From: a virus
Strand: one strand, 5' to 3'
IMG/VR virus record: IMGVR_UViG_3300031800_000537
Span: 1-53,326 of that record
DNA: 53,326 nucleotides
In this document: piece by piece, positions 17,118 to 50,498 of the stretch
How positions within the stretch are numbered: the stretch's first letter is position 1
How the letters are laid out: each line of letters begins with the position of its first letter
Notes under the pieces: model-generated
Seen by the model: only the letters and a program-made list of their open reading frames with translations
The model's database searches: none
What the model was told of the DNA's origin: nothing
Program-made: the position numbers and the translations under genes

Positions 17118-17160
17118 AGAAAAAACCCGCCGCGCAAAGCCAACGAAACGCGACGGGTTT
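17113..17160 (-). terminator. rho-independent terminator of the ACP operon
   Basis: On the minus strand a 12-bp stem (AAACCCGTCGCG with CGCGGCGGGTTT, one mismatch) is followed by TTTTTTCTTT. It lies about 95 nt after the ACP gene and ends transcription of the 18.9-17.3 kb block. Confidence 0.8.
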
Positions 17161-17254
17161 CATAAAGCGAACCTAGTTATTTATCACATACTGTCAGTGG
17201 CTCGCATTAATTATGACGGGGTGGCTGATGTTTAATTCAATCTCGCTTCGTCCT

Positions 17255-17992
17255 CTACTCAACTTGCTTACCGCCCTTGGGTAGCTTAATCTTCGGCTCG
17301 CCTTCCTCCTCATCCAGCTTCTTCATCTCTTTTTCTGCGTCGATCACGGTCATACCCGCGTCGCTGTACTCACCTTGACTGTATTCATCAGTGAAAATCT
17401 TAGTCGTCTCTAGCCCCATTTTCTTTTGTTCCTTAGCCTTTACTTTAGCTTGTTTCGCTCTTTCCTCGTCTCTCTTGGTTATGTCCTCTGGGAAGAGCGT
17501 CTTGTCAAAAAGAAAGTCCCTGAGGTGGCCGACAGTTTGTATCTTATTAAAATCCATCAGCGTGTTGTCTATCTCCACACCGTATTTATCTTCTAGATCG
17601 AGAAGCATCTCGATGGCCTCAAGCGAATCCAAATCAAGATCCTCCTTGAGTTTAGACTTCAGGGTGACTTTCACCCCCTCTTTCGCCACGTTTAACGAAA
17701 TTTCCTCCTTAAGCACCTTAGTGAAAAGCTTCTTGTCGGGACAGAGGCCCATTTTTTCCTTGCCAGACGCGGCATGTTTTGCCTTCTTATCTGCAATAAT
17801 CTGACCCTTGTTTACCACCTTACCCGCCTCCGCGCTAGTGCCCTTCTTGCCTGTCATCCCTTTGCGCGCACCGTAAATGATGTCATCTGGCCACGTGCTG
17901 GGGTCAGAACTGTCTACCACTGGCTTGTGGCTAACAACATTACGGGACACCTTGTTTCCTAATTTTACTGGTTTCTTTTTTTTAGGTTTCAT
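17255..17992 (-). CDS. acyl carrier protein domain with long N- and C-terminal extensions
   Basis: The central part (about residues 85-165) is an ACP: EDLDLDSLEAIEMLLDLEDKYG contains the Asp-Ser-Leu motif whose Ser123 would carry 4'-phosphopantetheine, followed by the usual helix pattern to LRDFLF. Around it lie a Lys-rich, probably disordered N-terminus of about 80 residues and a charged C-terminal tail of about 80. Typical ACPs have about 80 residues in all. A holo-ACP synthase gene lies two genes upstream in the same overlapping set, so the phage can activate its own carrier. No acyltransferase or synthase lies in the window, so the cargo is unknown. Confidence 0.85.
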   Translation of the reverse strand: MKPKKKKPVKLGNKVSRNVVSHKPVVDSSDPSTWPDDIIYGARKGMTGKKGTSAEAGKVVNKGQIIADKKAKHAASGKEKMGLCPDKKLFTKVLKEEISLNVAKEGVKVTLKSKLKEDLDLDSLEAIEMLLDLEDKYGVEIDNTLMDFNKIQTVGHLRDFLFDKTLFPEDITKRDEERAKQAKVKAKEQKKMGLETTKIFTDEYSQGEYSDAGMTVIDAEKEMKKLDEEEGEPKIKLPKGGKQVE

Positions 17993-18236
17993 TCTTTTCC
18001 TTTATTAGGGTTAGCTCCAATTTGGAGCACATAATTTTATACTGCTCTATATATTCAGGTTTAACCTGATTTGCTGCGCATGTCAATTTGTGATGTAGCG
18101 CGGGTAGTTTTACCGCAGTTATGGTGTTCATGTCTATCTCCTTCATACCTCCAAGCGGAAACAAATAATTCACTACATATAAAACAATCCCTTTCTCTTC
18201 GTCTGTTAAGGTCTCTAGGACATGCCTATAAATCAT
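17982..18236 (-). CDS. hypothetical protein between AcpS and ACP genes (84 aa)
   Basis: Starts MIYRHVLETLTDEEKG. A helical protein with two Cys and a His-His pair. It overlaps AcpS upstream by 4 nt and ACP downstream by 11 nt, so all three should be co-translated. It could be an ACP partner, but no family is recognised. Confidence 0.6.
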   Translation of the reverse strand: MIYRHVLETLTDEEKGIVLYVVNYLFPLGGMKEIDMNTITAVKLPALHHKLTCAANQVKPEYIEQYKIMCSKLELTLIKEKNET

Positions 18237-18613
18237 TCCCAGCTTTCCACGATTGTCGTCGCTGTCGCGTACTCTCTAGTATGACTCACGCTTACGTACA
18301 CATCGCATTCTAATTTGCAGAACGTTTTCAGGGCGTGCTCGCTGAATTGAATATAGGGCTGGCCAGACTCTCTTCTCCTAAGTTCTATGTGCTTCCATTC
18401 CATCCTAGCTCCTATGCCGTGCCCGAAACATTTGGCGGTGGCCTCCTTAGCCGCAAACCTAGCGGCAACATACTGCGCTGGGTTTCGATGAGACAAACAG
18501 TATTCTTTTTCGTCTGTCGTTAATATTTTATTTAAAAATCTGTCACCCCACTTCTCCAAAAGTCGTTGGACTCTAGCTACATCAACTATATCTGTTCCTA
18601 TCCCTAATATCAT
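18233..18613 (-). CDS. acpS: holo-[acyl-carrier-protein] synthase (4'-phosphopantetheinyl transferase)
   Basis: Transfers 4'-phosphopantetheine from CoA to the conserved Ser of an ACP. At 126 aa it is the normal AcpS size. It has GIGTDIVDVARV (Asp8 for metal) and ARFAAKEATAKCFGHGIG (Glu of the metal site, CoA-binding helix), ending VSVSHTREYATA. It lies two genes upstream of a phage ACP, its obvious substrate. It could also act on host ACP. Coupled by 4-nt overlaps to both neighbours. Confidence 0.93.
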   Translation of the reverse strand: MILGIGTDIVDVARVQRLLEKWGDRFLNKILTTDEKEYCLSHRNPAQYVAARFAAKEATAKCFGHGIGARMEWKHIELRRRESGQPYIQFSEHALKTFCKLECDVYVSVSHTREYATATTIVESWE

Positions 18614-18888
18614 AATATTTCCACTATTAATTGGCCGCTCATTGTGATTTGAACGCTTTGATTATCGTTTAGTTCTTTAATTAGACGCTTGTCGCGCTCA
18701 TCTATTTTATGAGCTAGGGCACCAAAATAGGCCACTAAAGCTTGCCTTTTTTGCGTTCTCTCGCATTTACAGCAGCTTCTTGAAATATCTCTAAGGCTCA
18801 TAAGCGTATTTATAACATCACTGTCAGCGAATTTATCTCTATGCTTATCAACAAAATGAAAAAATTTTGACCCATCAATGACTACCAT
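18610..18888 (-). CDS. hypothetical protein (92 aa)
   Basis: A mostly helical protein with a Cys-Cys-x-Cys cluster near residue 39 (SCCKCE), starting MVVIDGSKFF. It overlaps acpS by 4 nt. No family is recognised. Confidence 0.55.
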   Translation of the reverse strand: MVVIDGSKFFHFVDKHRDKFADSDVINTLMSLRDISRSCCKCERTQKRQALVAYFGALAHKIDERDKRLIKELNDNQSVQITMSGQLIVEIL

Positions 18889-18889
18889 T

Positions 18890-19231
18890 TTAATATAGTT
18901 TTTTTATTATAAAAAATAAAGACAGACTAATCAAATTAATTACCGGAAAATACAAAAATGAAAAGTCACCGCTTAGGGTGGCTACTGCGGACAGCCAAAC
19001 AGAAAGACAAAGAGGGCAAGTGATAAGGCTTATCCAGAAGGAGTCGCGGTATTTAACCCTCAAAAAATCCAAATAATCTACCTCGCCGTACAGGAGGTCG
19101 TTCTCGTAGGCTATAATATGAAAATGCAGAGAGAGGCCAAACGCCTTGGCGTAATGTGTAAACGCATCGGTTTCGAACCATATTATTAGGGCCAGCGCGA
19201 CCCAACAAGATAAGACAATAAGCTCCGCCAT
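18890..19231 (-). CDS. small membrane protein with CPLC motif (DUF1360-like)
   Basis: A 113-aa protein with an N-terminal transmembrane helix (residues 3-19), a soluble middle, then SLITCPLCLSVWLSA within a second helix and a third helix at the C-terminus. The CPxCxSxWL arrangement occurs in small phage/bacterial membrane proteins of the DUF1360 type. Role unknown. Confidence 0.6.
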   Translation of the reverse strand: MAELIVLSCWVALALIIWFETDAFTHYAKAFGLSLHFHIIAYENDLLYGEVDYLDFLRVKYRDSFWISLITCPLCLSVWLSAVATLSGDFSFLYFPVINLISLSLFFIIKKLY

Positions 19232-19232
19232 A

Positions 19233-19664
19233 CTATGTTATTTCCCTGAGACTCAGGTTCTCTAAGGATTTTTCTACTACAATAGTCGCTATCTCATCGC
19301 CCTTATCGACGCGAAAAGAATTATGTGACCCAAACAGGGCTGAGCGAGCCTTCATTGATTCTTTTTTTAAATATAAAAAATCCGGAACAGTTACGTTGAT
19401 GAGGGTAATCTTCACTTCTCCGCCTGAACTCATGACCTTGGGTGCACAAACCACCCCGCACTCTAAGAGCAAGTGGCATGACGGGTAAACCTTGACGGTT
19501 AGCCCCGGTGAAGGGAACAGCATTATACCTGTACTCACCTCCGCTCTCTCAAACGGCTGAACAGTCTTGCCCTCATTAGCGAACAACTTAAACACCGGCT
19601 TGCTTGCGTCAAGCTGTTCCGGGTCACGGGTATGGGGGTCTAATTTGGTAAAATTTAAAACCAT
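19233..19664 (-). CDS. divergent dUTPase-fold protein, active-site residues missing
   Basis: A 143-aa protein whose order of elements follows trimeric dUTPase: VSTGIMLFPSPG (motif I region), VKVYPSCHLLLECGVVC (where PRSGLA...HG is expected), SSGGEVKITLINVT (where the DYRGE segment is expected) and FRVDKGDEIATIVVE (motif IV, normally GDRIAQ). The Ser of motif II and the catalytic Asp of motif III are not conserved. It may be an inactive or repurposed member, for example a binding protein. The identification rests on pattern only. Confidence 0.55.
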   Translation of the reverse strand: MVLNFTKLDPHTRDPEQLDASKPVFKLFANEGKTVQPFERAEVSTGIMLFPSPGLTVKVYPSCHLLLECGVVCAPKVMSSGGEVKITLINVTVPDFLYLKKESMKARSALFGSHNSFRVDKGDEIATIVVEKSLENLSLREIT

Positions 19665-30015: not shown

Positions 30016-30777
30016 ATGAAGCCCAAAGTTTCTCTGTATACGTCCCTATTTAAGGGGGCAAAGCACCTAAAAGGGTTCCTAGAAGACGTCGAAAGACAGA
30101 CCATCTTCAAGGAGTGCGAGCTAGTTATAATCAACGCAAATTCCCCAGAAAGAGAAGAGGAAGAGGCTATCCTTAAGCCCTACCTACACAAACATAGAGG
30201 CCACGGCAACGGTCTCATCAAGTACTCAGTCCTTGATAGCGACCCCGGAGTTTACGCCGTTTGGAACAAGTGCATCAAGGAGTGCTCCTCAGATCTCATT
30301 TCAAATGCGAATGTGGACGACAGAAAGCACCCAGAACACCTAGAAATGCACTATCAAGGCCTAAAGGATAACCCAGACATAGACTTAACGTATGCGGAGG
30401 TAGCCGTTACATACAAGGCCAACGAAACCATGGAAAAAAACAGTGTCGTGTTGATACAGAACTTTCCAGAGTATTCGTTTATAAATTTAATAAAATATAA
30501 CATGCCACATAATAATCCAGTGTGGAGGAAATCCATTCACGAAAAACATGGATACTTTAGGGAGGACATGATTTCCGCAGCGGACTTTGACATGTGGCTA
30601 AGGGCAGCGTCAAACGGAAGTAAATTTAAAAAGGTAAGCGGAGTGCTTAGTCTATATTATAAGAACCCAGAGGGCGTTTCAACCAAGGGAGAGACCTTGA
30701 GCGAAGCAATAGAAGAGGTCAATAAACTAAGGGAAGAGTATTCTCACAAGATAGACTACAGAGAATTAAGGCTATGA
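30016..30777 (+). CDS. GT2-like glycosyltransferase
   Basis: A 253-aa GT-A-fold enzyme: PKVSLYTSLFKGAKHLKGFLEDVERQT at the N-terminus and CELVIINANSPE, typical of GT2 transferases. The usual Asp-x-Asp is represented by NANVDDRKHPEHL (about residue 98). ISAADFDMWLRAASNGSKFKKV matches the acceptor-side helix. First gene of the sugar array, leaderless-type start. Donor unknown. Overlaps the next gene by 4 nt. Confidence 0.8.
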   Translation: MKPKVSLYTSLFKGAKHLKGFLEDVERQTIFKECELVIINANSPEREEEEAILKPYLHKHRGHGNGLIKYSVLDSDPGVYAVWNKCIKECSSDLISNANVDDRKHPEHLEMHYQGLKDNPDIDLTYAEVAVTYKANETMEKNSVVLIQNFPEYSFINLIKYNMPHNNPVWRKSIHEKHGYFREDMISAADFDMWLRAASNGSKFKKVSGVLSLYYKNPEGVSTKGETLSEAIEEVNKLREEYSHKIDYRELRL

Positions 30778-31613
30778 TAATCCCAGTTTGCACAGTAGTT
30801 ACAGAAAATTGTTACACTGAATTCTTATTGTTCAGGACATCCATAGAAGCATTTCACGACTGCGAATGGTTCATATCGTGTGACCCGTGGGTCAAGGAAC
30901 AACTTGAGGAAAGCGAAAAAGTCCATGCGCATTGCCTAATAGAGTCCGACAACTGCGATCACGTAATAAACGACGAGGAGCAGAACAAAAACTTTACGAA
31001 GCTAATCTTGACCAAATTCGACATATGCAACGAGGGACTAAAGCATCACCCATTCGTTCTCCTCATTGATGATGATATGATTTTTACAAATCCCATTGAC
31101 GACGTGATCCTAGAGCTACTTAGTAATAAAGTGGTCGATGCCTGCGTTACGCCTCACATGACAGATGGGTATGGCGACGAAAAAGTAACCGGGTACTTTA
31201 ATTGTGGCATGGTTTTTATATCCAACCCACAGTTTATCGAACACTGGGCCACCTTGACAGCTAACCACGATCAGCTTGGCTTATATTACGAGCAAAAGCC
31301 CCTAGAACTAATCCTTAAGTCTTTCGTTACGATTAACCTACCCCTTAACTACAACATCGGATGGTGGAGATTCCTTACTCCACAAACTCAAAAGAGGCTT
31401 GACCTCTTCAACATAAAGGATCAAAGTCTATATTTTGGCAGGAGACCGGCGATTAATTTTCACGTGCACACGCTCAAAAATCTAAAATACCATAACCAAG
31501 GACAGTTCCTTAAGGATCTTTTGTTCGACTCACTCCCTCAATGCTTCAACCCAGCTTACAGAAAAATAATAGAAAAATACGAGGAACTTAATAATGAAAA
31601 TATACAAAGCTAG
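30774..31613 (+). CDS. GT-A-fold glycosyltransferase
   Basis: A 279-aa enzyme with VLLIDDDMIFTNPIDD (Asp-x-Asp metal/donor site, about residue 98) and GYFNCGMVFISNPQFIEHW, as in GT8/GT77-like nucleotide-diphospho-sugar transferases. The C-terminal INFHVHTLKN supplies a further His typical of the metal site. Overlaps both neighbours (4 nt and 20 nt). Confidence 0.75.
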   Translation: MIIPVCTVVTENCYTEFLLFRTSIEAFHDCEWFISCDPWVKEQLEESEKVHAHCLIESDNCDHVINDEEQNKNFTKLILTKFDICNEGLKHHPFVLLIDDDMIFTNPIDDVILELLSNKVVDACVTPHMTDGYGDEKVTGYFNCGMVFISNPQFIEHWATLTANHDQLGLYYEQKPLELILKSFVTINLPLNYNIGWWRFLTPQTQKRLDLFNIKDQSLYFGRRPAINFHVHTLKNLKYHNQGQFLKDLLFDSLPQCFNPAYRKIIEKYEELNNENIQS

Positions 31614-32415
31614 AACAGCTTGGACAGACTCCTTCCCCGAACTGCTATCCATGTGGGAAGAAAAAGGGTGGGTTGAGGTAATACAGACAGAAAATAGATG
31701 TACTTGGGTAGAAAACGAAGGAGACATACTTCTCTATGAGCACGACACCCTCGGCCAGCTTCCAATGGACTGGAACTATGGTCTTTTTGCTACTTCAGTT
31801 CATCACGGGTCTAAAAGCAGCCCATGGATACTCTGGCCTAGACACCCAAGAAATCTAGAACTCCTACTCGAAGAAGAAGGGGTACTCAATCACAACCAGA
31901 AGGACATAGAGTCTATTTTTCTAGGTAAAGTAGAAAACCCAATTCAGAAAGAGAGAAGGACCGCCCACGACTGGAGTAGATGCGTCGAAGAATTCTCAAT
32001 GCCTGTCGAGCTCGGTATATCTGGGAACTATAAACTACCAAACATGGACTACCTTAAGAGAATAAGGAGAGCCAAGTTCGGCCTGTGTCTTCCCGGCTAT
32101 GGGTCCAAGTGTCAAAGAGAAGTAGAACTTATGGGAGTAGGCACAGTTCCCATTATAACGAAAGGGGTTGACACCACATATTTCCGGACCCTCATAGAGG
32201 GGGTACATTATCTTTACGCGGAAAATCCAGATCATGTTAAGAAAATAATAGATAGCTGCTCCGTGCAAAAATGGAAACAGATGCAAGCTAACTGTCTAGA
32301 CTGGTACATGCATAGCTGCTCGAGAGAGGGGTCTCTTGAAACAACCCAACTAATAATCATGAGATATCTGAACGAAAGCGGTAGGAGCTCAGAAATAGCC
32401 TTTGATGATGAGTAA
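31594..32415 (+). CDS. exostosin/GT47-like glycosyltransferase
   Basis: A 273-aa protein whose C-terminal part (YLKRIRRAKFGLCLPGYGSKCQREVELMGVGTVPII ... IEGVHYLYAEN) matches the donor-binding half of GT-B exostosin-type transferases. The N-terminal half is not recognised. It lies in the array between two other transferases, overlapping each. Confidence 0.7.
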   Translation: MKIYKARTAWTDSFPELLSMWEEKGWVEVIQTENRCTWVENEGDILLYEHDTLGQLPMDWNYGLFATSVHHGSKSSPWILWPRHPRNLELLLEEEGVLNHNQKDIESIFLGKVENPIQKERRTAHDWSRCVEEFSMPVELGISGNYKLPNMDYLKRIRRAKFGLCLPGYGSKCQREVELMGVGTVPIITKGVDTTYFRTLIEGVHYLYAENPDHVKKIIDSCSVQKWKQMQANCLDWYMHSCSREGSLETTQLIIMRYLNESGRSSEIAFDDE

Positions 32416-33319
32416 GATTAAACCACGACACGAGAGCCCGGCGGAAGAGTATAAAAATAAATGCTTAAGCTCCGAAGAACTAAACATCGAGCTTAAAGCT
32501 CTTGTGCTTAACGGCACCCCAACCAGCGCCGCTAAGATGGGCATGGTCGAAGCGATGTCTGTTTACCACTACCTACTTCGCAAAGAAAAAGGACACAAGA
32601 CTGAATATCATGGCATAGGGCAGCTTATGTTCGTTAACGCTGGGATTTTCCCACCAACGGTTGAGTCGTTTGATCAGTTCAATGAGACCTACCTCTCCTA
32701 CTTCTCCGATCTAGATTTATTTGGAATGTGGATATGGGGCCCAGAACCCTGCGGGGAATACGAGAAATTAGTGTACGACGAATACACAAAGGATGCATCC
32801 CTGTGTTTCGGAGGGGACTGGATGCCCTTCTTCCGCGAAAAGCCTTGGACGGCAGAACTAAAAGGCAAAAGAGTGCTTGTTATAAGCCCGTTTGCAAACA
32901 CCATAACCAAACAATATGAAAAGCGTGAAAAAATTTGGGAGAGCAACCCAGACATACTACCATCCTTCGATCTTAAAACTATAAAATGTCCGCTCTCAGC
33001 AGGGATAAGTGATTCACCATTCACAGACTGGACAGAAGGTCTTCACGCCATGGAAGACATAATGGATAAAACAGATTTCGATGTATGCTTTGTCGGTGCT
33101 GGAGCATGGGGCCTACCTCTAGCTGTTCACGCTAGAAGGCTAGGCAAAATAGGAATCCATGGGGGGGGAGACACCCAACTCTTGTTCGGCATAAAAGGAA
33201 AAAGATGGGACGACAACCCAGACATAAGCGACAAGCTATACAACGAGCACTGGGTTAGGCCATCCCGAAATGAAACCCCAACAAACAGAAAGTTTATTGA
33301 AGATGGATGCTACTGGTAA
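32405..33319 (+). CDS. probable GT-D-fold glycosyltransferase
   Basis: About 304 aa. The segment GKRVLVISPFANTITKQYEKREKIW followed by FDVCFVGAGAWGLPLAVHARRLGKIGIHGGGDTQLLFGIKGKRWD has the layout of the GT-D/DUF1792-like transferases found in surface-glycan clusters. The N-terminal helix AAKMGMVEAMSVYHYL is consistent. Either of two adjacent ATGs may be the start. Overlaps neighbours on both sides. Confidence 0.65.
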   Translation: MMSKIKPRHESPAEEYKNKCLSSEELNIELKALVLNGTPTSAAKMGMVEAMSVYHYLLRKEKGHKTEYHGIGQLMFVNAGIFPPTVESFDQFNETYLSYFSDLDLFGMWIWGPEPCGEYEKLVYDEYTKDASLCFGGDWMPFFREKPWTAELKGKRVLVISPFANTITKQYEKREKIWESNPDILPSFDLKTIKCPLSAGISDSPFTDWTEGLHAMEDIMDKTDFDVCFVGAGAWGLPLAVHARRLGKIGIHGGGDTQLLFGIKGKRWDDNPDISDKLYNEHWVRPSRNETPTNRKFIEDGCYW

Positions 33320-33623
33320 AACGCTAGAGGAAAAAGTAAAAGAACTAGAAAAACTACGAGGGAAGCTGGAGAGAGAGCGGAAGAAAGACCTCGCAGAAAA
33401 AGAAAAATTTTACGAAGGCCAAATGGACGTGCTCTCAAAACTTCAAGTCGGCCCAGAAGAGCAAGCAAAAGTGCAAGAACAAATGGACGGCATAAGGGTT
33501 CAGCAAGTAGAAGATCATAATAATATAATAAGAAACAGCGAAATTAAAATTAACTCCGTTTACGCTCAAATAAATTTACTAACTGAATTCATCTCCGACG
33601 GATATAAACTAGAGAAAAAATGA
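33303..33623 (+). CDS. coiled-coil protein in the glycan array (106 aa)
   Basis: Start at MDATGKT, overlapping the previous gene by 17 nt; an ATG 11 codons earlier is possible. Nearly all Lys/Glu-rich heptads (residues 8-45) and a second helix pair, resembling prefoldin-like hairpins. No enzyme motif. Could scaffold the transferases, but this is only positional. Confidence 0.55.
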   Translation: MDATGKTLEEKVKELEKLRGKLERERKKDLAEKEKFYEGQMDVLSKLQVGPEEQAKVQEQMDGIRVQQVEDHNNIIRNSEIKINSVYAQINLLTEFISDGYKLEKK

Positions 33624-34393
33624 AAAAAATATTTTTAGTAATAGCAGACTATAAAGACGAAAAGCAAGACCTTTTCGAGAACAAGATCTCCCCAATAAAC
33701 GAAGCATACTGCCTCAAGCATGGGTTCGAGTACATGTTCGTAAAAAAGGACACTCCCCCCATGATAAGAGATAACCCTACTTGGTGGAAGTTTACCATAC
33801 TTCAGGAGCTCTTAGATAAAAACCAGCTAAATGACGGCGACGTTTTCACCCATCTAGACGCGGACATGGTCATAGTCGACGACAGCACGTCGTACCAGAC
33901 CAGCAAGTCCTTTTCCTACTCGATAGACAATGGAAACAGCCATTGCATGGGCAACTACACAATGACCATAAACGACTGGTCGAGGAAACTTGTAGAAAAC
34001 ATACTGAAAGACGAACAGCTTGAAAAAATGAACAACGATCCAGAGTGGAAGTCTTATTGGGCTACTGGCGGAGGAGTTATGAGAGAGCAGGGTGTCTGGT
34101 ATACCCTAGCTGGAGTTCAACCGCATAGCTGGGTTCCCTTCCCCGACTTGCCTAACTCCGGATTCCATTCGAAAACTACTCCCGAACCAGTCTACTCCCT
34201 AGAGGAGCTCGAAGAACACGTGGAAATCAGAGGTCCAGAATGGAACTGCACGCTTCTTGCCGAAGAAGCAGACGACTATATTAGTCAATCCTTACAAAAA
34301 TATAATATAGTTCGAAGTAAAAAGGAAGATATAATAATTAGGCATTTCGCTGGAGGCCAACGTTGGCGAGAAGAATATCTTAACAATGGATAA
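33620..34393 (+). CDS. GT34-like glycosyltransferase
   Basis: A 257-aa GT-A enzyme. KIFLVIADYKDEK starts the fold, DGDVFTHLDADMVIVDD is the Asp-x-Asp site (about residue 79), YWATGGGVMRE the acceptor loop, and DIIIRHFAGGQRW the C-terminal His. This resembles galactosyl/xylosyl-type GT34 transferases. Overlaps neighbours by 4 and 8 nt. Confidence 0.72.
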   Translation: MKKIFLVIADYKDEKQDLFENKISPINEAYCLKHGFEYMFVKKDTPPMIRDNPTWWKFTILQELLDKNQLNDGDVFTHLDADMVIVDDSTSYQTSKSFSYSIDNGNSHCMGNYTMTINDWSRKLVENILKDEQLEKMNNDPEWKSYWATGGGVMREQGVWYTLAGVQPHSWVPFPDLPNSGFHSKTTPEPVYSLEELEEHVEIRGPEWNCTLLAEEADDYISQSLQKYNIVRSKKEDIIIRHFAGGQRWREEYLNNG

Positions 34394-35303
34394 ACTAAGA
34401 ATAAATTTTGTAGACTTCTGGCCCAACTTTGAGAAACGTGATAATTATTTTTATCACCTACTCTCCACCGAGTTCGACGTGGTTATAGACGAAGAAGAGC
34501 CTGAAATTCTTTTCCACTCTTCCGATTATCTCAACGAACAAAACCACAAAAAATACGACGACGGGAGGGCTATAAAAGTTTACTACACTGGTGAAAACGA
34601 AAGACCGGACTTCAACGAAAGTCATTTTACTTTTACGTTTGATTATTCTGACGACCCAAGGAATTATAGGTTACCACTATGGCTTCTTCATCTAAATTGG
34701 TTTAACGTGCCCCACAATGAAGAGAGGGATCAATCCTATTTGCATTCTTTAGATCTTTTTCTAGACAAAAAGATAGACATAGACAAAATAAGAGAAACAA
34801 AAAAAGAATTTTGCACATTCATATCGTCTGTTGCTAAAGGTCGCCGAGTTGATTTTGTACCAAAACTACACAACGAATACAAGCCTATAGCATGCGCCGG
34901 CGGCTTGTTTAATAATGTACGCGGTAAACTTAATGGACGTGGAGATCAAAGGTGGAAAATAGAATTTTTAGATTTATTTAAATTCAACATAAGCTTCGAG
35001 CACACAAGACACCCCGGTTATGTTACAGAAAAAATAATTCACCCCATGTTTGCCAACACTATACCTATTTATTGGGGGAGTAGACGGGTAGAGGAGGAAT
35101 TTAACCCGAAGAGCTTTATTAATGGAAATAAATACCACAATGATGAAGAACTTATTGACGTCATAGCAAAGATAGACAGCGACGAAGATCTATATATATC
35201 AATGCTAAACGAACCTTGGTTCAACAACAATGAAATACCAGAGTACGCAAAGCCAGAAAACGTCATGAAATTTTTCAAGGAAAAAGTATTGGCATCCCTA
35301 TGA
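34386..35303 (+). CDS. alpha-1,3-fucosyltransferase-like (GT10)
   Basis: A 305-aa GT-B enzyme that would move fucose, or a related sugar, from its GDP donor. The N-terminal KVYYTGENERPDFNES followed by TFDYSDDPRNYRLPLW, and the C-terminal ISFEHTRHPGYVTEKI then IPIYWGS, are the GT10 acceptor and GDP-fucose motifs. The array also carries a GDP-fucose-synthase-like gene (47554), and a phosphomannomutase gene lies at 2734. The N-terminal catalytic Glu is probably Glu in TGENERP. Confidence 0.88.
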   Translation: MDKLRINFVDFWPNFEKRDNYFYHLLSTEFDVVIDEEEPEILFHSSDYLNEQNHKKYDDGRAIKVYYTGENERPDFNESHFTFTFDYSDDPRNYRLPLWLLHLNWFNVPHNEERDQSYLHSLDLFLDKKIDIDKIRETKKEFCTFISSVAKGRRVDFVPKLHNEYKPIACAGGLFNNVRGKLNGRGDQRWKIEFLDLFKFNISFEHTRHPGYVTEKIIHPMFANTIPIYWGSRRVEEEFNPKSFINGNKYHNDEELIDVIAKIDSDEDLYISMLNEPWFNNNEIPEYAKPENVMKFFKEKVLASL

Positions 35304-36013
35304 GGCTCAACGTAGACAAAATATTTTGCTGTCACCACCCCTCTGAATTTCTCAAGAGCAGGAAGGAAAAGTTAGTAAACTTTTTCAAAGAAAACGACAT
35401 AGACGTCGAGTGGGTTGAAGGCTTCCCTCCCGAAGAAGCCGAAAACTACGATTACAGCAGGTTAGTACACAGGACAATGACTAGAGGGCCAATGGAATGC
35501 AGAACCGACGCCGCAAAAGCCAAAGACCTTTCTCGTAAAGGCGTATCTCTCATATTAAAGCATAATTATTGCTACGAGCAACAAATTGAAAACAATTACA
35601 AAAACATATTGATACTAGAAGACGATGTAGATCTTTTCTCCGGCTTTTCTGAAGAATATTTTAATAAGTGCATGCGAGAATTCGAGGCCGCCGGTTTAGA
35701 AATGCTATACTTGGGCTCGTGCTGTGAGATGAAGCATCCGGAAACCAGACCAGATAAGTATGTTTACTACGACCATTGTACGAAACCACTTCCATCTAGA
35801 TGTACCCACTGCTACGTAGTCAGTACAGAAGGGGCCCGCAAAACACTAAAGCACTCCTTCGGTATGTTCGACTCTGTAGACTGGCAATTGAACTGGATAA
35901 TAGAAAAAGAAAAAATAAAAAATAGCTGGGCAGAGCCCAGCGTAAGACAGCTAAACCTTGGCTCATCTCTTAATTCAGAGGGAGACCTAGAAAACCTACA
36001 GGTAGATGAATAG
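35300..36013 (+). CDS. GT25-family glycosyltransferase
   Basis: A 237-aa protein of the LPS-type GT25 family: GVSLILKHNYCYEQQIENNYKNILILEDDVDLFSGF with the Glu-Asp-Asp metal site (about residue 108), then SRCTHCYVVSTEGARKTL and DWQLNWI. It would add galactose or a similar sugar. Overlaps neighbours by 4 and 8 nt. Confidence 0.85.
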   Translation: MRLNVDKIFCCHHPSEFLKSRKEKLVNFFKENDIDVEWVEGFPPEEAENYDYSRLVHRTMTRGPMECRTDAAKAKDLSRKGVSLILKHNYCYEQQIENNYKNILILEDDVDLFSGFSEEYFNKCMREFEAAGLEMLYLGSCCEMKHPETRPDKYVYYDHCTKPLPSRCTHCYVVSTEGARKTLKHSFGMFDSVDWQLNWIIEKEKIKNSWAEPSVRQLNLGSSLNSEGDLENLQVDE

Positions 36014-37124
36014 ACCCAAAACTAAAATAGCATTCGTTAAGTTCGCCGGCATGGCTTCCGGCGGGGTTGAAAAATATCTCCAAACCATTGCGTGCATGTT
36101 GCCTAAAGAGGAATTTGAAGTAGATTATTTTTACACAAACGCCGCTCCCTTCATCAATTCCGATTTCGTACACCCAGACAATGATCCCGAAAGACTCAAG
36201 CTGGTAGACTCTCACGGCGTTAGGACTATCAAGGTTCATGTGGAAGCAAAGTACGGCGACCCGGAGCCTTACGAATGGGTAAACACAGATTTTTGGGAGC
36301 TATTTGACGAGTCTAAGTACGATGCAGTAACAACCGCAGGAGCGGGATGCCTAGAATATCCATATAATTTAATCAACAAAACTAAAATAATAGCAACCAT
36401 CCATGGCTTTCACGGTTATGACAGACCCAATATTTACAGGGCTATTCTTTTGTGCGATTGGCAAGCAGGCGAATGGGCAAAAAACGGTGGAAATACAAGC
36501 AAAGCCGTTATTATACCCGGCTTAATAGAAGCTCCCCCAAAGAAAGAAAGCACAATCAGAGAGGTCATGAGCATACCGCAGGATGCCTTTGTGTATGGGT
36601 TCCATCAGGGAAACAGGGAGGACATATTCTCGCCAGCGTCCCTACAAGCATACGACCTAATCAAAAACCCCAATAACTACTTTGTCATAATGGGCGGAGC
36701 AAACAAACACAGGGAACTAGGCAGGCAACTCAACTGCCCTAATATAAAATTTATAGACTTTTCGAGCTCGACAAAAGATATACATAATTTTTTAGGAGGC
36801 ATAGATGTCTTCGCTCACGCCAGAGCAGATGGAGAAGTGTGCTCTGGAGCTATAATAGAAGCCCTGTACCACGGTAAACCTGTTATATCCCACCCAGCGT
36901 TAAACATGGGGCACGCCGAACAAATAGACGGATGCGGGAAACTGGTTTACACCCTAGAAGAATACGCAAAAGAGATGCTCAAACTAGAAAGAGACAAAGA
37001 TCATTATAATAACATGTCGAAAAATGCACTTGAAAAATATCGAAAAAAATACGACTATAACGTGATAAAAAGAAAAATATTAGATGTCTATCTCGAATTA
37101 AGACACTTAAACGAAAGCGAATAA
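36006..37124 (+). CDS. GT4-family glycosyltransferase
   Basis: A full-length 372-aa GT-B enzyme. The N-terminal FAGMASGGVEKYLQTIACML is the acceptor-side glycine loop, ATIHGFHGY comes at the hinge, and DVFAHARADGEVCSGAIIEALYHGKPVI (with the two Glu) forms the donor site. Part of the array. Confidence 0.85.
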   Translation: MNRPKTKIAFVKFAGMASGGVEKYLQTIACMLPKEEFEVDYFYTNAAPFINSDFVHPDNDPERLKLVDSHGVRTIKVHVEAKYGDPEPYEWVNTDFWELFDESKYDAVTTAGAGCLEYPYNLINKTKIIATIHGFHGYDRPNIYRAILLCDWQAGEWAKNGGNTSKAVIIPGLIEAPPKKESTIREVMSIPQDAFVYGFHQGNREDIFSPASLQAYDLIKNPNNYFVIMGGANKHRELGRQLNCPNIKFIDFSSSTKDIHNFLGGIDVFAHARADGEVCSGAIIEALYHGKPVISHPALNMGHAEQIDGCGKLVYTLEEYAKEMLKLERDKDHYNNMSKNALEKYRKKYDYNVIKRKILDVYLELRHLNESE

Positions 37125-37128
37125 AAAC

Positions 37129-37707
37129 ATGAACGAAATAAAAGACGATGTAAAAAGGTATCTTGGGGAGGTTTCTACCATATGTAGCTCTATAGACCAA
37201 GAAGACATAAGGAACTTCTGCGAAGGCATAAAAAATATCAAAGAAAATGGGGGGCGTTTATTTATCATGGGCGTCGGCGGTAGCGCCGCGAACTCTTCCC
37301 ACGCAGTAAATGATTTCAGAAAAATTCTAGAGCTGGAGACGTACTGCCCCTTCGACAACGTTTCCGAGCTAACAGCCAGAATAAACGACGACGGCTGGGA
37401 CACATCCGTATCAAACTGGCTTAAAGTCTCTAGGATAAACGAGAAAGACGGGGTGATGGTCTACTCTGTTAGTGGGGGAGGAGAGAACACGTCTCAAAAT
37501 CTAGTTAAAGCCATGCTTGCTGCGAAAGAAGTTGGCGCAAAAGTATTCTCCATTACTGGAAGGACTGATGGGGAAGCTAACAAGTTGGCGGATTATCCGG
37601 TGGTTGTACCAAATGTTTCCGAGGAGAGAGTAACTCCCCATACCGAAGAATGGCAGGGCGTAGTATGGCACCTAGTAGTTACCGTATTAAAGGATAATTT
37701 AAAATGA
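37129..37707 (+). CDS. SIS-domain isomerase, GmhA-like (sedoheptulose-7-P isomerase)
   Basis: A 192-aa SIS protein: GRLFIMGVGGSAANSSHAVNDFRKIL, then YSVSGGGENTSQNLVKAML and TPHTEEWQGVVWHLVV. The Ser-rich loops and C-terminal Glu/His fit GmhA, which converts sedoheptulose-7-phosphate to D-glycero-D-manno-heptose-7-phosphate. It is followed by a transaldolase that can make sedoheptulose-7-phosphate and by a heptose-kinase-like gene, which strongly supports this reading. Overlaps the next gene by 4 nt. Confidence 0.8.
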   Translation: MNEIKDDVKRYLGEVSTICSSIDQEDIRNFCEGIKNIKENGGRLFIMGVGGSAANSSHAVNDFRKILELETYCPFDNVSELTARINDDGWDTSVSNWLKVSRINEKDGVMVYSVSGGGENTSQNLVKAMLAAKEVGAKVFSITGRTDGEANKLADYPVVVPNVSEERVTPHTEEWQGVVWHLVVTVLKDNLK

Positions 37708-38411
37708 AGGTAAAACTTTTCGCAGATGGAGCAGTCATTTCAGAGATGGTTGACTGTTATAACAATGGAACAGTGCAGGGGTTCACAACCAACCCCACCT
37801 TAATGCGTCAAGCAGGTATTGAAGACTACGAAAGCTTCGCTAAAGAAGCGTTAGAAAAAATTCCTGATGCACCTATTTCATTTGAAGTATTCTCTGATGA
37901 TTTTCCAGACATGCACCGTCAGGCCTTAAAGCTAAATGAGCTAGCTTCAAACGTCTACGTGAAAATACCAATAACTAACACCAAGGGAGAAAGCAGCCTC
38001 CCACTGGTCGAGTCACTTGTTCTACATGGCGTCAAAGTAAATGTGACAGCTATCATGACGGCTAATCAGGTGCGTGATCTCGCCCCCGTGCTATCTGCGG
38101 GTGTCCCTAGCGTGGTTTCTGTTTTTGCTGGCAGGATTGCAGACTCCCTCCGAGACCCAGAGCCCATAATGAGAGAATGCAGGCTGCACCTAAGCTACTA
38201 TAAACTAGAGCACAAAGCGGAGTTGCTCTGGGCAAGCTGTAGAGAAGTTTACAACATAAAACAGGCAGACGACTGCGGGTGTCAGATCGTTACCGTAAGC
38301 CCATCTATCTTAAAGAAACTAAAATTAAAAGGCAAAGACCTAAAGGAATACTCCCTAGAGACAGTACAAATGTTCTACGACGACGCTTCTCAGGCCGGAT
38401 ACAAACTATGA
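37704..38411 (+). CDS. talC: transaldolase (small TalC/F6PA type)
   Basis: A 235-aa class I aldolase: LFADGAVISEMVDCYNNGTVQGFTTNPTLMRQ, Schiff-base Lys in VYVKIPITN, NVTAIMTANQ, and SVFAGRIADSLRDP. It transfers dihydroxyacetone units and could make sedoheptulose-7-phosphate from fructose-6-phosphate and erythrose-4-phosphate. In cyanophages talC diverts carbon to the pentose-phosphate route. Here its place between GmhA- and HddA-like genes argues for supplying heptose precursors. Confidence 0.88.
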   Translation: MKVKLFADGAVISEMVDCYNNGTVQGFTTNPTLMRQAGIEDYESFAKEALEKIPDAPISFEVFSDDFPDMHRQALKLNELASNVYVKIPITNTKGESSLPLVESLVLHGVKVNVTAIMTANQVRDLAPVLSAGVPSVVSVFAGRIADSLRDPEPIMRECRLHLSYYKLEHKAELLWASCREVYNIKQADDCGCQIVTVSPSILKKLKLKGKDLKEYSLETVQMFYDDASQAGYKL

Positions 38412-39388
38412 TTATAACTCGGGCTCCATTTAGAATAACCCTTGGCGGCGGAGGCACCGACCTGCCCTCGTTCTACGAGAAGAACGAGGGGTTTGTATTG
38501 ACCATGGCAATAGACAAACACATCTATGTCACATTTAAAAAAAATATCCTAGAGCCCAAAATAAGACTGCAATATTTGAAGACTGAATTCGTAGATACCC
38601 CAAGGGAACTAGAACATGAACGAGCAAGAGAAGCCCTCCTATTGCACGGGATTACAAGAGGCGCAGAGATAAGCAGCATAGCAGACCTGCCGTCTCGGGC
38701 AGGGCTGGGGTCTTCCGGTAGTTACTTAGTAGCCCTACTCACCGCGTTAAGATGCTACAAAAAACTGTCTCCTGAACCAAAGATCATAGCTGAAGAGGCT
38801 TGTCGTATAGAAATCGACACGCTCAAGGAGCCAGTAGGAAAACAAGATCAATATATAGCTGCTTTTGGCGGGGTGAAAAGCTTATATATAGACCGCCATG
38901 GGAAAGTCGAAGTAGAAGAGTTGGACTTATCACAGAGCAGCATGCAGGACTTCTTATCCTCTGTCCATATTTACTATACCGGCGTATTGCGGTCTGCATC
39001 AGAGATCTTAAAGGAACAGTCTTCCCTGCAAAATAACGCAGAAGAGAACCTAAAGCAAATAAAAGATATAGGCTATGAAGTGAAAGAGAGCTTGCTCAGC
39101 GCAAACTTCGACAACTTTGGCCTACTCATGGATAAACACTGGCAATTAAAAAAACAATTATCAAAAAAAATTAGCCTTCCCTCGATGGATAAGCTTTATA
39201 ATATAGTTAAAGAAAGATTCGGCGTTCTTGGTGGAAAAATAATCGGCGCTGGAGGGGGAGGCTTTATCATGCTGTACGCCTCCAAGAACCGTGCAGAGCT
39301 CGAATCTTTTATGAAGGAAAACGGATATCCGAGAGTCAGCTATAATATAGATTACTCTGGATGTCAAACGATAGTAAACTTTGGATAA
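38408..39388 (+). CDS. hddA: GHMP kinase, D-glycero-D-manno-heptose-7-P kinase-like
   Basis: Phosphorylates a sugar phosphate at C1. 326 aa from the ATG overlapping the talC stop (ATGA). ITRAPFRITLGGGGTDLPSFYEKNEGF is the HddA-type N-terminus. IADLPSRAGLGSSGSYLVAL is the GHMP ATP-binding loop, followed by GKQDQYIAAFGG and GGKIIGAGGGGFIML. With the GmhA-like and transaldolase genes it forms the first three steps of a GDP-heptose-type pathway. Confidence 0.85.
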   Translation: MIITRAPFRITLGGGGTDLPSFYEKNEGFVLTMAIDKHIYVTFKKNILEPKIRLQYLKTEFVDTPRELEHERAREALLLHGITRGAEISSIADLPSRAGLGSSGSYLVALLTALRCYKKLSPEPKIIAEEACRIEIDTLKEPVGKQDQYIAAFGGVKSLYIDRHGKVEVEELDLSQSSMQDFLSSVHIYYTGVLRSASEILKEQSSLQNNAEENLKQIKDIGYEVKESLLSANFDNFGLLMDKHWQLKKQLSKKISLPSMDKLYNIVKERFGVLGGKIIGAGGGGFIMLYASKNRAELESFMKENGYPRVSYNIDYSGCQTIVNFG

Positions 39389-39394
39389 AATAAA

Positions 39395-40096
39395 ATGGAG
39401 AACTTAGAACTTGAAAATAAAATGGACGAATTGCAAGTCGCAATTAAAAACGACGGCAAACGAATAGGGGCATGGGATAATCACGAGACTTACCACAAAG
39501 CGTGCACGTCAGAAGTCTCCGTAGATGGACTATGGCTAGAATTCGGCGTCTATCGCGGGAGAACTATTACAACCATAGCGAAAGAAACCTCCAGCATGGT
39601 GTATGGATTTGATAGTTTCGAGGGATTGCCAGAGAATTGGGATCACGAGAACCCAAAGGGGGTATACGGATTAAACGGATCAATTCCACTCGCTGCAATT
39701 ACCGGAGAGAACGACGATAACCCGGGCATGTATGACCCACGCCCCACGATAACCACGGAGCCTTGGCAAGAAAACATTGTCCTAATAAAGGGGTGGTTCG
39801 AGGAGACGCTCCCCTTCTTTCTTAAAGAACATAAAGAAAAAGCAGCCTTCGTACACATAGATAGCGACGTGTATAGCTCCGCACAAACAATACTTTCCCT
39901 TCTAAAGGAAGGGGATCGCTTCCAAGACGGAACGATACTTTTGTTCGACGAGATAATCGATTACCCAACCTACAGGGAGCATGAAATAAAAGCATTTGCT
40001 GAATTTTTACTAGAAACTAATTACAAATACGAATGCCTATATCACCAAAGCTTGGGAGATTACAGCCAAGCGTGTTTTAAAATTTTAGAAAGATAA
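39395..40096 (+). CDS. TylF/MycF-like O-methyltransferase
   Basis: A 233-aa SAM-dependent enzyme: LWLEFGVYRGRTITTIA (SAM loop), YGFDSFEGLPENW, IVLIKGWFEETLPFFL, AAFVHIDSDVYSSAQTIL (metal-binding Asp) and ILLFDEIIDYP. This matches the macrocin-type sugar O-methyltransferases. It would methylate a sugar hydroxyl, fitting its place in the array. Confidence 0.87.
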   Translation: MENLELENKMDELQVAIKNDGKRIGAWDNHETYHKACTSEVSVDGLWLEFGVYRGRTITTIAKETSSMVYGFDSFEGLPENWDHENPKGVYGLNGSIPLAAITGENDDNPGMYDPRPTITTEPWQENIVLIKGWFEETLPFFLKEHKEKAAFVHIDSDVYSSAQTILSLLKEGDRFQDGTILLFDEIIDYPTYREHEIKAFAEFLLETNYKYECLYHQSLGDYSQACFKILER

Positions 40097-40101
40097 AAAA
40101 T

Positions 40102-40857
40102 ATGGAAAGAGAACAGGGATCGAGAACGAAAGATAAGGAAGCAAACGAGGACTGCGTCCACGATGGTCATCTTGGTGGCTGTGCTATGAATGGTGACGGC
40201 GCTGGGTATTGCCCAAGAACGTGGTCGCACTTAATAAAAAAATACAACATTAAATCCATGGTAGACGTGGGTTGTGGAGCAGGGTTTTCCGCAGATTATT
40301 TCAAGGATCTAGGGGTAGAAGTGTTGGGAGTGGAAGGGTGCAAGGAAGCCGTAGAAAGGTCATTGCTCCCAAAAGAAAACGTGGTCCTCCATGATTACGA
40401 AAATGACGGCCCATACGTACCGGATAGAGACTTTGACTTTTGTTGGTCAAACGAGTTCGTAGAACACGTCGAAGGGGACTGCGCTCAAAACTTTCTAGCA
40501 ACATTCAAAAAATGCAGAATGATTGCCATGACATTTGCCGGCCCCGGCCAAGGCGGACACCACCATGTAAACGAACAGCCAATCGATTACTGGCTAGATC
40601 GCCTCTCGGAAATTGGTTTTACCTACGACGAAAAAGAGACTAAAGAGTGCAAGGAGTTCGCTAAGTTAGATATGATCAAATATTGTCCGTATGGCGGTAA
40701 CCACTTTGTTGCTAGGGGTCTCCTCTTTCACAGGAATGGAGACCCGCTTCCCAAAAATGAGTCATATTCTTATGCAATGCCAGACGTCCCCCCTTTGAAA
40801 CCGCACTGGGATAACTGGGTTCTCTACAAGAAAGGAGGTAGATTTGAGAACGATTAA
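40102..40857 (+). CDS. class I SAM-dependent methyltransferase
   Basis: A 251-aa protein. MVDVGCGAGFSADYFKDLGVEVLGVEGCKEAVE is the SAM-binding motif I/II, and DFDFCWSNEFVEHVEGD is motif post-II. A His-rich loop (GQGGHHHVNEQPIDYW) and several Cys follow. Probably a sugar methyltransferase. Overlaps the next gene by 14 nt and contains its SD. Confidence 0.8.
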   Translation: MEREQGSRTKDKEANEDCVHDGHLGGCAMNGDGAGYCPRTWSHLIKKYNIKSMVDVGCGAGFSADYFKDLGVEVLGVEGCKEAVERSLLPKENVVLHDYENDGPYVPDRDFDFCWSNEFVEHVEGDCAQNFLATFKKCRMIAMTFAGPGQGGHHHVNEQPIDYWLDRLSEIGFTYDEKETKECKEFAKLDMIKYCPYGGNHFVARGLLFHRNGDPLPKNESYSYAMPDVPPLKPHWDNWVLYKKGGRFEND

Positions 40858-41758
40858 ATCTAATATCAAAATAGCGATGTTTTGGGAGTTCTATGAAGAC
40901 GACCCCAATTACTGGAGTAGCACCAGCGGCATCAACCACCACCTTAAAAAAATGGTCGACACGGTTGATAACTATCACATCCCCAAAGAAGACAAGTCCT
41001 TAGGCTTTAAGGAGTTCTTGGAGCGAGGCGAACAATACGACGCCTGTATACTATGGAACGCTGGGAGCCTAAGGGAAGGCACTCCATACTGGAGAAAAGA
41101 CGTCCTTAAAGACTGCTTATTAGTTTTAGAAGCGGGTGACGAGCCTCAGGCTTACCAGCAGCACATTGAACTCAGCAATCAATCAGACTTGGTTTTGACC
41201 ACTGATTTAAGATGCACTTGGGCATACAAGCAACGAGGTATTAACGCCCATTGGTTTAATTCTTGGTGCAACGAACAGGTTTTCCATCCGAGAAAGTCAA
41301 ACGATCCCGAGCCAGACTTAAGCGTCATAACAACCATGTATGGTGACCGCAGATTCGAACCCGAAGTAGCGTCTGCCCTTGGCGATAAGTACCTCAAAAA
41401 GAACGACTTAGAAGGCAACGAGAACGGGGATTTTTTTCGTAGAGGCAAGATAATTTTTCAACAAGCAAGATGGGGAGAGATTACTAGAAGAATCTTCGAA
41501 GGCATGGGCTGCCGTAAATTAGTATTTACTGACTACCTTCATCCAGATACAGGTATATACGAACTATTTCAACAGAGAAAAGACATAATTTACTACGACA
41601 ACGCTAATGAATGCATCCAATTGATGAATTATTTTCTAGAACACGACGAAGAAAGAGAAGAAATTGCGGACAATGGATATAAAAAAATACTCGAACATCA
41701 TTCTTCCGAGAAGAGAGCGCAAGAGTTGCTCGGCCTCATAGAAAAGTTAATTAAATGA
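40844..41758 (+). CDS. CgeB-like glycosyltransferase (TTG start)
   Basis: Starts at TTG after a strong GGAGGT. 304 aa. The C-terminal part (KIIFQQARWGEITRRIFEGMGCRKLVFTDYL ... GIYELFQQRKDIIYYDNANECIQLMNYFLEHDEERE) matches the Glyco_trans_1_2 (CgeB-type) donor domain, and the N-terminal half is a matching GT-B domain. Confidence 0.78.
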   Translation: MRTIKSNIKIAMFWEFYEDDPNYWSSTSGINHHLKKMVDTVDNYHIPKEDKSLGFKEFLERGEQYDACILWNAGSLREGTPYWRKDVLKDCLLVLEAGDEPQAYQQHIELSNQSDLVLTTDLRCTWAYKQRGINAHWFNSWCNEQVFHPRKSNDPEPDLSVITTMYGDRRFEPEVASALGDKYLKKNDLEGNENGDFFRRGKIIFQQARWGEITRRIFEGMGCRKLVFTDYLHPDTGIYELFQQRKDIIYYDNANECIQLMNYFLEHDEEREEIADNGYKKILEHHSSEKRAQELLGLIEKLIK

Positions 41759-42696
41759 TCGTATCCAAATGCCCAATGAGAATATCCCTAGCTGGTGGCT
41801 CCACCGACCTAGAAGAGTACGTGGACACCAATGGCTACGGTAGTGTCATAAGCTTTCCGTGCACTCTATATTCTTACATCAGTATTTTTCACGACAAGAA
41901 TGGATACAATAATTTTTTCAATAAATATATAATAAACTACACATCAAGAGAGCAAGTTGACGACATAAGCGAAATAAAAAATGACGTCGCTAGAGAGGTG
42001 CTTGATCACTTCAAGTGTGAGCCATTAGCTATGAGCTTTCACGCGGATGTATTCTCAGAAGGATCTGGCCTAGCTTCCTCTTCTGCTTATTTGATAGCCT
42101 GCATCAAGGCAGTCTCGGTTCGTAAAGGAGTTGTCCTTTCCGAGTTTGATATATGTAATTTAGCTCTAAAAATAGAAAAAAAATTCAACCCGCTTACCGG
42201 CTATCAAGACGTATATGGCTGCGGGCTTGGCGGACTAAAAAGAATGCACTTCCACGAAGGGGGGAGAGTAAAGGTCCAGTATCTCAAGAAGAGTATGTTT
42301 ACTTTTTTTGATATGTATCTTGTATACACGGGCATAAAAAGGAAGTCCACCAAGCTGCTTGAAAGTTTAGACTTGAAAAAAATTGATAAAATATTACCTT
42401 TAGTAGACGAGATGGAAAGAAGCATAAACAACTACGACGCTCAAAGCTTCCTTGATATTATCAAAGAAGGGTGGGCAAAGAAGAAGGAAACCTCCCCGAT
42501 GATAACGCAAAACGCTATCATATCTGACATAGACGATACCCTGAGGAGAGACAAGGGTGTGCTAGCCCATAGGCTGTGCGGCGCAGGAAACGGTGGATAC
42601 TTTTTAGTGTTTAAGAAGGCCAACACCCCAAACGAATTAAAAAATTGTCTTAAAATCGAAATGTCGAAAGAATCAATCACATGCAAAACAATATAG
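41755..42696 (+). CDS. second GHMP-family sugar kinase
   Basis: A 313-aa kinase: KCPMRISLAGGSTDLEEYVDTNGYGSVISF, SEGSGLASSSAYLIACIKAV (ATP loop) and LAHRLCGAGNGGYFLVF. It is related to but well diverged from the HddA-like kinase at 38408, so it probably acts on a different sugar phosphate or anomer. Overlaps its upstream neighbour by 4 nt and nearly abuts the fusion gene downstream. Confidence 0.82.
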   Translation: MIVSKCPMRISLAGGSTDLEEYVDTNGYGSVISFPCTLYSYISIFHDKNGYNNFFNKYIINYTSREQVDDISEIKNDVAREVLDHFKCEPLAMSFHADVFSEGSGLASSSAYLIACIKAVSVRKGVVLSEFDICNLALKIEKKFNPLTGYQDVYGCGLGGLKRMHFHEGGRVKVQYLKKSMFTFFDMYLVYTGIKRKSTKLLESLDLKKIDKILPLVDEMERSINNYDAQSFLDIIKEGWAKKKETSPMITQNAIISDIDDTLRRDKGVLAHRLCGAGNGGYFLVFKKANTPNELKNCLKIEMSKESITCKTI

Positions 42697-42698
42697 AA

Positions 42699-45317: not shown

Positions 45318-45796
45318 ATAAATACGAGAAGCTAAAAGAAAAAGGAATAAAGCTGGGCTTTGTTTGTAGCTGTTGGGATCTAATGCATGCAGGGCATTGC
45401 CTTTTCATAGAAGATGGGAAGAGGCAATGCGACTATCTTATTGCAGGCCTACAAACAGACCCCACCATAGATAGGCCGCAAAAAAACAAACCGATACTGA
45501 GCCTCGAAGAAAGAAAAATAATACTAGAGTCCAATAGGCACGTCGATGAAATCGTAATGTACGAGACGGAAAAAGACCTAGCCTTCGCGCTAGAGAGAAT
45601 AAGGCCAGACGTCAGGGTCCTTGGTAGCGATTATTACCTCATCGAAAACGGCGGTCCAGCTTACTTTACCGGCGCAGGAACAGAGAAAGACATATACTAC
45701 CACGATAGAAGCAAGCACGGCTGGTCTACTAGCGAGATTAGGAGAAGAATATTTAAGGCCGAGCTCGAGAAAGGCAATGGGATGAGTGTTTCGTGA
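45314..45796 (+). CDS. HIGH-type nucleotidyltransferase (sugar-1-P activation)
   Basis: A 160-aa cytidylyltransferase-fold enzyme: LGFVCSCWDLMHAGHCLFIEDGKRQCD (HxGH motif), then LEERKIILES and VRVLGSDYYL, ending WSTSEIRRRI (ISSTxLR-like). It could couple a nucleotide to heptose-1-phosphate, as the C-terminal half of HldE does. It overlaps the fusion gene by 4 nt. Confidence 0.8.
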   Translation: MNKYEKLKEKGIKLGFVCSCWDLMHAGHCLFIEDGKRQCDYLIAGLQTDPTIDRPQKNKPILSLEERKIILESNRHVDEIVMYETEKDLAFALERIRPDVRVLGSDYYLIENGGPAYFTGAGTEKDIYYHDRSKHGWSTSEIRRRIFKAELEKGNGMSVS

Positions 45797-50497: not shown

Positions 50498-50498
50498 A

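Follow-up and report, generated by a model that had tools for sequence, protein, structure and literature searches.

An acyl carrier protein and an AcpS-type holo-ACP synthase encoded in one operon of a phage genome fragment

Why would a phage carry both an acyl carrier protein (ACP) and the holo-ACP synthase that would modify it, and what might such a protein carry? The question is raised by a 53-kb IMG/VR fragment (record IMGVR_UViG_3300031800_000537) of a large uncultured phage, analysed over its whole length and called the window here; structural genes were not recognised in it. The viral relatives used for comparison were metagenomic contigs, the majority of them fragments, with the exception of Prochlorococcus phage P-HM1. 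Two of them are referred to as the sister (IMGVR_UViG_3300032360_001735, 70 kb; G001/L002) and the cousin (IMGVR_UViG_3300027627_000440, 35 kb; G002).

Layout of the operon and identity of its products

The operon lies on the minus strand, where the gene for a dUTPase-like protein, beginning at position 19664, is followed by genes for a 113-aa protein, a 92-aa protein, AcpS, an 84-aa protein and the ACP, and then by a terminator (Table 1). The AcpS and 84-aa genes overlap by 4 bases, and the 84-aa and ACP genes by 11 bases. The 71-nt terminator stretch had a minimum free energy of -24.5 kcal/mol (z = -2.9 against shuffled sequences). The original prediction had placed AcpS, the 84-aa protein and the ACP in one overlapping gene set with a terminator after it, and the coordinates, the overlaps and the z value all agree with that arrangement. 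No family match was obtained for the dUTPase-like protein of the window, the name being read from the ordinary-looking sequence of the cousin protein. The 113-aa protein was weakly DUF1360-like (PF07098, E 0.026, below the cut-off).

Table 1. Features of the AcpS/ACP operon in the window.
Feature	Coordinates	Strand	Remarks
Terminator, Rho-independent	17122..17161	(-)	Closes the operon ahead of a UDP-glucose dehydrogenase gene
ACP with charged arms on both sides, 245 aa	17255..17992	(-)	PP-binding match
C-terminal arm, 74 aa, 35 charged residues, net charge -1	17255..17479	(-)	Partly helical in a low-confidence model
ACP core domain, residues 81-171	17480..17752	(-)	96% identity to sister, dN/dS 0.012
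Ser123 codon, predicted 4'-phosphopantetheine attachment site	17624..17626	(-)	D-S-L motif
N-terminal arm, 80 aa, net charge +13, predicted unstructured	17753..17992	(-)	Low-confidence model
84-aa orphan between AcpS and ACP	17982..18236	(-)	Predicted all-helical, lineage-specific
AcpS-type holo-ACP synthase, 126 aa	18233..18613	(-)	Family and PDB matches
92-aa protein	18610..18888	(-)	Overlaps AcpS start; 83% identity in sister, 31% in cousin, same operon position
113-aa predicted membrane protein	18890..19231	(-)	In operon of sister and cousin; hydrophobic sequence
Diverged dUTPase-like protein, operon head	19233..19664	(-)	32% identity to cousin L004:8902-9384

The synthase matched the Pfam family ACPS (PF01648) with an E value of 1.9e-20 and TIGR00516 with an E value of 1.1e-31 over residues 1-124, scoring 109.7 bits against a cut-off of 59.8. 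By this full-length equivalog match it is classed as a canonical single-domain, group I 4'-phosphopantetheinyl transferase. Its best solved relative was 5vbx (E 2e-22). Across seven phage AcpS proteins the columns D8, R14, E57 and K61 were invariant; in AcpS, Asp8 and Glu57 bind metal and Arg14 faces the ACP, and these residues were kept in the alignment with 5vbx as well. The lysine of the KEA..K motif was also kept in the phage AcpS.

The ACP matched PP-binding PF00550 (E 1.1e-5, above the gathering score) and PHROG 5934, 'acyl carrier protein' (E 9e-9), and a profile built from the window ACP and its phage relatives matched solved ACPs in the PDB with an E value of 1e-12. Against the housekeeping family TIGR00517 it scored 36 bits, under the cut-off of 70.45, and at its length it is not a short single-domain protein. 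Translation and alignment bear out the predicted placing of Ser123 in an Asp-Leu-Asp-Ser-Leu context. The D122-S123-L124 motif was invariant in all nine phage ACPs aligned, and Ser123 aligned with Ser36 of E. coli ACP. Four acidic residues of the E. coli protein, Asp35, Asp38, Glu41 and Glu48, corresponded in the alignment to Asp122, Glu125, Glu128 and Asp135 of the window ACP; in E. coli ACP these residues serve recognition by AcpS. The full-length model of the ACP was poor (pLDDT 46) and gave no match in a fold search. It predicted, at low confidence, helices at residues 87-100, 111-117, 124-137 and 154-165, with D-S-L at the start of helix II (124-137). This helix order is compatible with the ACP fold and is not taken as proof of it.

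Charged extensions of about 80 residues had been described on each side of the ACP domain, and the measured arms (Table 1) match that description. The N-terminal arm was the least constrained part of the protein (dN/dS 0.28 between window and sister), the C-terminal arm having a dN/dS of 0.11. The 84-aa protein had no Pfam, PHROG or NCBIfam match, and the sole relative found was the copy in the sister contig (87% identity; dN/dS 0.22). Its model, with a pLDDT of 67, had no significant fold match in the PDB.

Two further features of the window were noticed outside the operon. A dense cluster of glycosyltransferase and sugar-nucleotide genes occupies positions 30016-48531, with a GT10 fucosyltransferase, sugar kinases, epimerases and an 878-aa epimerase/C-methyltransferase fusion. 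A MotA/ExbB-like protein paired with a TolR-like membrane protein is encoded at 50463-51574, and the same pair was found at L010:917-2015 and, by eye, in the 316-kb phage G005.

Conservation and origin of the gene pair

The sister contig is collinear with the window over nearly its whole length and keeps the whole gene set and order of the operon. The full ACPs of the two contigs are 75-81% identical, the dS of the ACP core is 1.6, so synonymous change is near saturation, and dN/dS across ACP and AcpS ranged from 0.012 to 0.09 (0.061 for AcpS). Since the order is kept despite near-saturated synonymous change, the gene set is not a product of chance ORFs, and the AcpS/ACP pair is under strong purifying selection.

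In the cousin, where gene names were partly read from sequence, the order is dUTPase, homologues of the 113-aa and 92-aa proteins, AcpS, a 78-aa ACP (ACP1), an HNH-like gene, a 97-aa ACP (ACP2) and a glycosyltransferase-like gene. The cousin AcpS is 60% identical to that of the window, and the 97-aa ACP is about 45% identical to the window ACP core. Both cousin ACPs are armless and no homologue of the 84-aa protein was found in the cousin, so neither the arms nor the 84-aa protein would be needed for the basic function. The 84-aa gene was also considered as the counterpart of cousin ACP1, which occupies the same place, and was rejected as such, there being no detectable similarity. Judged from these comparisons, the conserved unit is AcpS plus ACP, and the arms and the 84-aa protein represent either a gain on one branch or a loss on the other.

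In a tree of 57 AcpS proteins, phage membership required five label changes, three of them forced by well-supported branches; entry of AcpS into phages more than once is therefore most likely. The AcpS of the window, sister and cousin formed one clade (support 100/99), placed with moderate support (89/85) beside AcpS of Kapaibacteria and Ignavibacteria, which hints at a donor or host from that part of Bacteroidota. Such a grouping would also fit a reading in which acpS and the ACP gene were passengers from a bacterial chromosome, useless to the phage, and some IMG/VR AcpS matches were indeed host pdxJ-acpS flanks. We consider this explanation highly improbable. The operon is conserved in three contigs, its neighbours are not host pdxJ or fab genes, and genes for a phage-type DNA ligase, a sigma factor and a homologue of T4 rIIA (E 6e-115) are present on the sister. 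The constraint on ACP and AcpS, measured at near-saturated synonymous sites, already contradicts the passenger reading.

ACP and AcpS genes in other phages

It is not new for one phage to encode both an ACP and a phosphopantetheinyl transferase: Prochlorococcus phages P-HM1 and P-HM2 were reported in 2010 to have an ACP gene as well as one for the corresponding synthetase (Sullivan et al. 2010, PMC3037559). In P-HM1, PHM1_027 is a 158-aa ACP (PP-binding E 5e-7) whose gene is located in the baseplate block, and PHM1_077 is a 152-aa 4'-phosphopantetheinyl transferase. As in the window, both genes are present in one phage genome, and in the P-HM1 ACP the core keeps the D-S-L motif and the same acidic recognition residues and is followed by some 60 residues of charged tail. 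However, the two P-HM1 genes lie about 22 kb apart, the transferase matches PF01648 over residues 73-125 only (E 2.5e-8) in contrast to the full-length AcpS of the window, and neither a comparable long N-terminal arm nor the 84-aa protein is present. What sets the window apart from P-HM1 is a full AcpS within the ACP operon, arms flanking the ACP core at either end, and the gene for the 84-aa protein.

Among other phages, the ACP of Erwinia jumbo phages (Eneladusvirus) was detected by LC-MS/MS of phage proteins, and the authors call phage ACPs rare (PMC7760394). It is likewise a phage ACP, but it differs from that of the window in lying near a spanin-like gene, with no phosphopantetheinyl transferase mentioned in that paper. 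ACPs have been annotated as possible auxiliary metabolic genes in several phages (PMC5463345, PMC10152775, PMC11705849, PMC8224337). In the parts of these papers that deal with the ACPs, Erythrobacter phage vB_EliS-R6L, Vibrio phage R16F, Alteromonas phage R22Y and Rhodobacteraceae prophages share with the window an ACP in a phage genome, whereas the ACP stands alone or as acpP with fabF and fabG, and a phage AcpS is not described there. Bacterial housekeeping AcpS and AcpP have the same catalytic and recognition motifs as the window pair, but host AcpP is a single short domain, in contrast to the two-armed window ACP with its synthase gene in the same operon. The window pair is real, functional-looking and uncommon.

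AcpS with ACP was found in at least four further phage groups, and the combination recurs in several unrelated large phages. Most AcpS-bearing phage records also hold an ACP (G000, G001, G002, G005, G008, G010, G011 and G012; the match in G009 was weak). The ACP gene directly precedes a ketosynthase gene of the FabF type (TIGR03150, E 1e-99 in L145) in four T4-like contigs (G010-G013). AcpS was found in three of these contigs, and in G012 and G013 a desaturase gene comes directly after the ketosynthase. These ACP-ketosynthase loci, two of them with a desaturase, apparently constitute a phage fatty-acid module. In G008, a 233-kb record, a desaturase gene adjoins that of the ACP and AcpS lies elsewhere. 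In the 316-kb G005, a gene for a DltA-like amino-acid adenylation protein is followed by those for ACP and AcpS. In G004 (L008, 141 kb), AcpS and five desaturase genes were found and no ACP was detected. Fatty-acyl partners near the ACP make fatty-acyl cargo the commonest theme in other phages, though not the sole one, since the DltA-like pairing in G005 indicates that the cargo need not be fatty acyl.

Several loci were noted during the survey in their own right. ACP-ketosynthase contigs near AcpS and genes of the gp32/gp59 region were seen at L145:601-7167, L143:128-7922, L144:3373-5611 and L045:1339-2789. Genes for a DltA-like adenylation protein, a 72-76-aa carrier protein and AcpS stand in a row at L047:14-2392 (G005) and L011:2608-4951. 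At L046:245-1674 (G009), a weak ACP-like protein adjoins a diverged ketosynthase on a contig with a short AcpS. Genes for 2-oxoglutarate oxygenases, which are numerous in large phages, were seen by eye near AcpS or ACP in G002, G005, G007 and G008. Many viral AcpS matches were set aside because they lay, certainly or probably, in flanking host DNA (L017-L023 and L038; pdxJ-acpS and similar arrangements). MaAM05, with secDF, scpAB and smc near acpS, and the unannotated OR84xxxx records look contaminated and were not counted as phage examples. MW495066.1 (L013) and OR84xxxx are labelled as phage, carry secDF, smc-scpAB and acpS or fabF-like genes, and have the look of bacterial contamination.

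Possible cargo and role of the phage ACP

The original prediction held that the phage makes a dedicated 4'-phosphopantetheinylated protein. That the phage would make such a protein of its own is well supported: both genes are complete, their layout points to co-transcription, purifying selection on them is strong, and the ACP retains the acidic residues for AcpS recognition. Two qualifications apply, namely that the arms are lineage-specific and that the pairing was already known. We infer, with good support, that the phage AcpS would act on the phage ACP.

It had further been stated that no ketosynthase or acyltransferase is encoded in the window. Searches for six families, the ketosynthase (PF00109), AMP-binding (PF00501), desaturase (PF00487), hexapeptide (PF00132), PlsC-type (PF01553) and GNAT (PF00583) families, gave no match in the window, sister or cousin, all three of which are fragments. 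The statement is thereby confirmed, but it carries little weight, because the window is a 53-kb fragment without a recognised structural gene. Looking beyond the window for acyltransferases gave none in the sister or cousin contigs.

With moderate confidence, we favour a reading in which AcpS loads the ACP and holo-ACP carries an acyl group for the benefit of the phage. During infection, host CoA would supply the 4'-phosphopantetheine that AcpS attaches to the phage ACP at Ser123. Holo-ACP would then carry an acyl group, most likely fatty acyl, received from or passed to host fatty-acid and lipid enzymes, the transfer being made by host enzymes or by phage enzymes encoded outside the fragment, and the group would be delivered to an acceptor that benefits the phage. 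The charged arms would probably localise or dock the ACP, and an AcpS of its own would keep the newly made, highly expressed ACP from staying apo. We infer only weakly, for the cargo by analogy with other phages, that it may be fatty acyl, and the acceptor and the role of the arms are named as weakly. A membrane lipid is a candidate acceptor because a membrane protein is encoded in the same operon, and a glycan is another because glycosyltransferases are encoded nearby. Weighing against this reading are the empty searches for acyl-handling families in the three fragments, the DltA-like pairing in G005, and G004, in which AcpS was found and no ACP was detected.

The sugar genes could also point to a different cargo: a small group, aminoacyl, hydroxyacyl or the like, that holo-ACP would hand to a phage glycan, so that the virion or the host surface is decorated. 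Cousin ACP2 lies directly 5' of the glycosyltransferase-like gene, the UDP-glucose dehydrogenase gene stands just past the terminator in the window with about 20 sugar-nucleotide and glycosyltransferase genes at 23-48 kb, and G005 combines its DltA-like protein with ACP and AcpS. However, the terminator sets the ACP apart from the sugar genes in the window, and no hexapeptide or GNAT acyltransferase and no adenylation protein was found in the window, sister or cousin, so we regard this cargo as unlikely.

Host ACP binds SpoT and MukB, and the ACP of the window might similarly be a protein-binding device and not a metabolic carrier, its arms recruiting it to a complex where the phosphopantetheine or acyl arm regulates a partner. 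The published ACP-SpoT interaction is a precedent (PMC3340395). The long charged arms, the C-terminal one partly helical in the low-confidence model, are in keeping with such a role, as are the failure to find a metabolic partner in the window or its relatives, the LC-MS/MS detection of the Erwinia jumbo phage ACP (PMC7760394) and the baseplate position of the P-HM1 gene. Against it, the ACPs of the cousin have no arms although the operon is kept there, and in the window protein constraint is weakest on the N-terminal arm; a purely binding role appears rather improbable to us. A more elaborate proposal seems distinctly doubtful: the locus would encode a dedicated carrier system, docked by the arms and separate from that of the host, in which the 84-aa protein lends specificity to the acylation or aminoacylation of virion proteins or phage glycans.

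Beyond this locus, the recurrence of carrier-protein sets across large phages is the finding of greatest interest. Our survey suggests repeated gain of AcpS and ACP in such phages, sometimes with a ketosynthase, a desaturase or an adenylation protein, and the operons surveyed offer concrete, testable material on the role of phage ACPs. Should phage genes indeed be the source of holo-ACP, a central step of fatty-acid, lipid and secondary metabolism would be under the control of some phages and not borrowed from the host.
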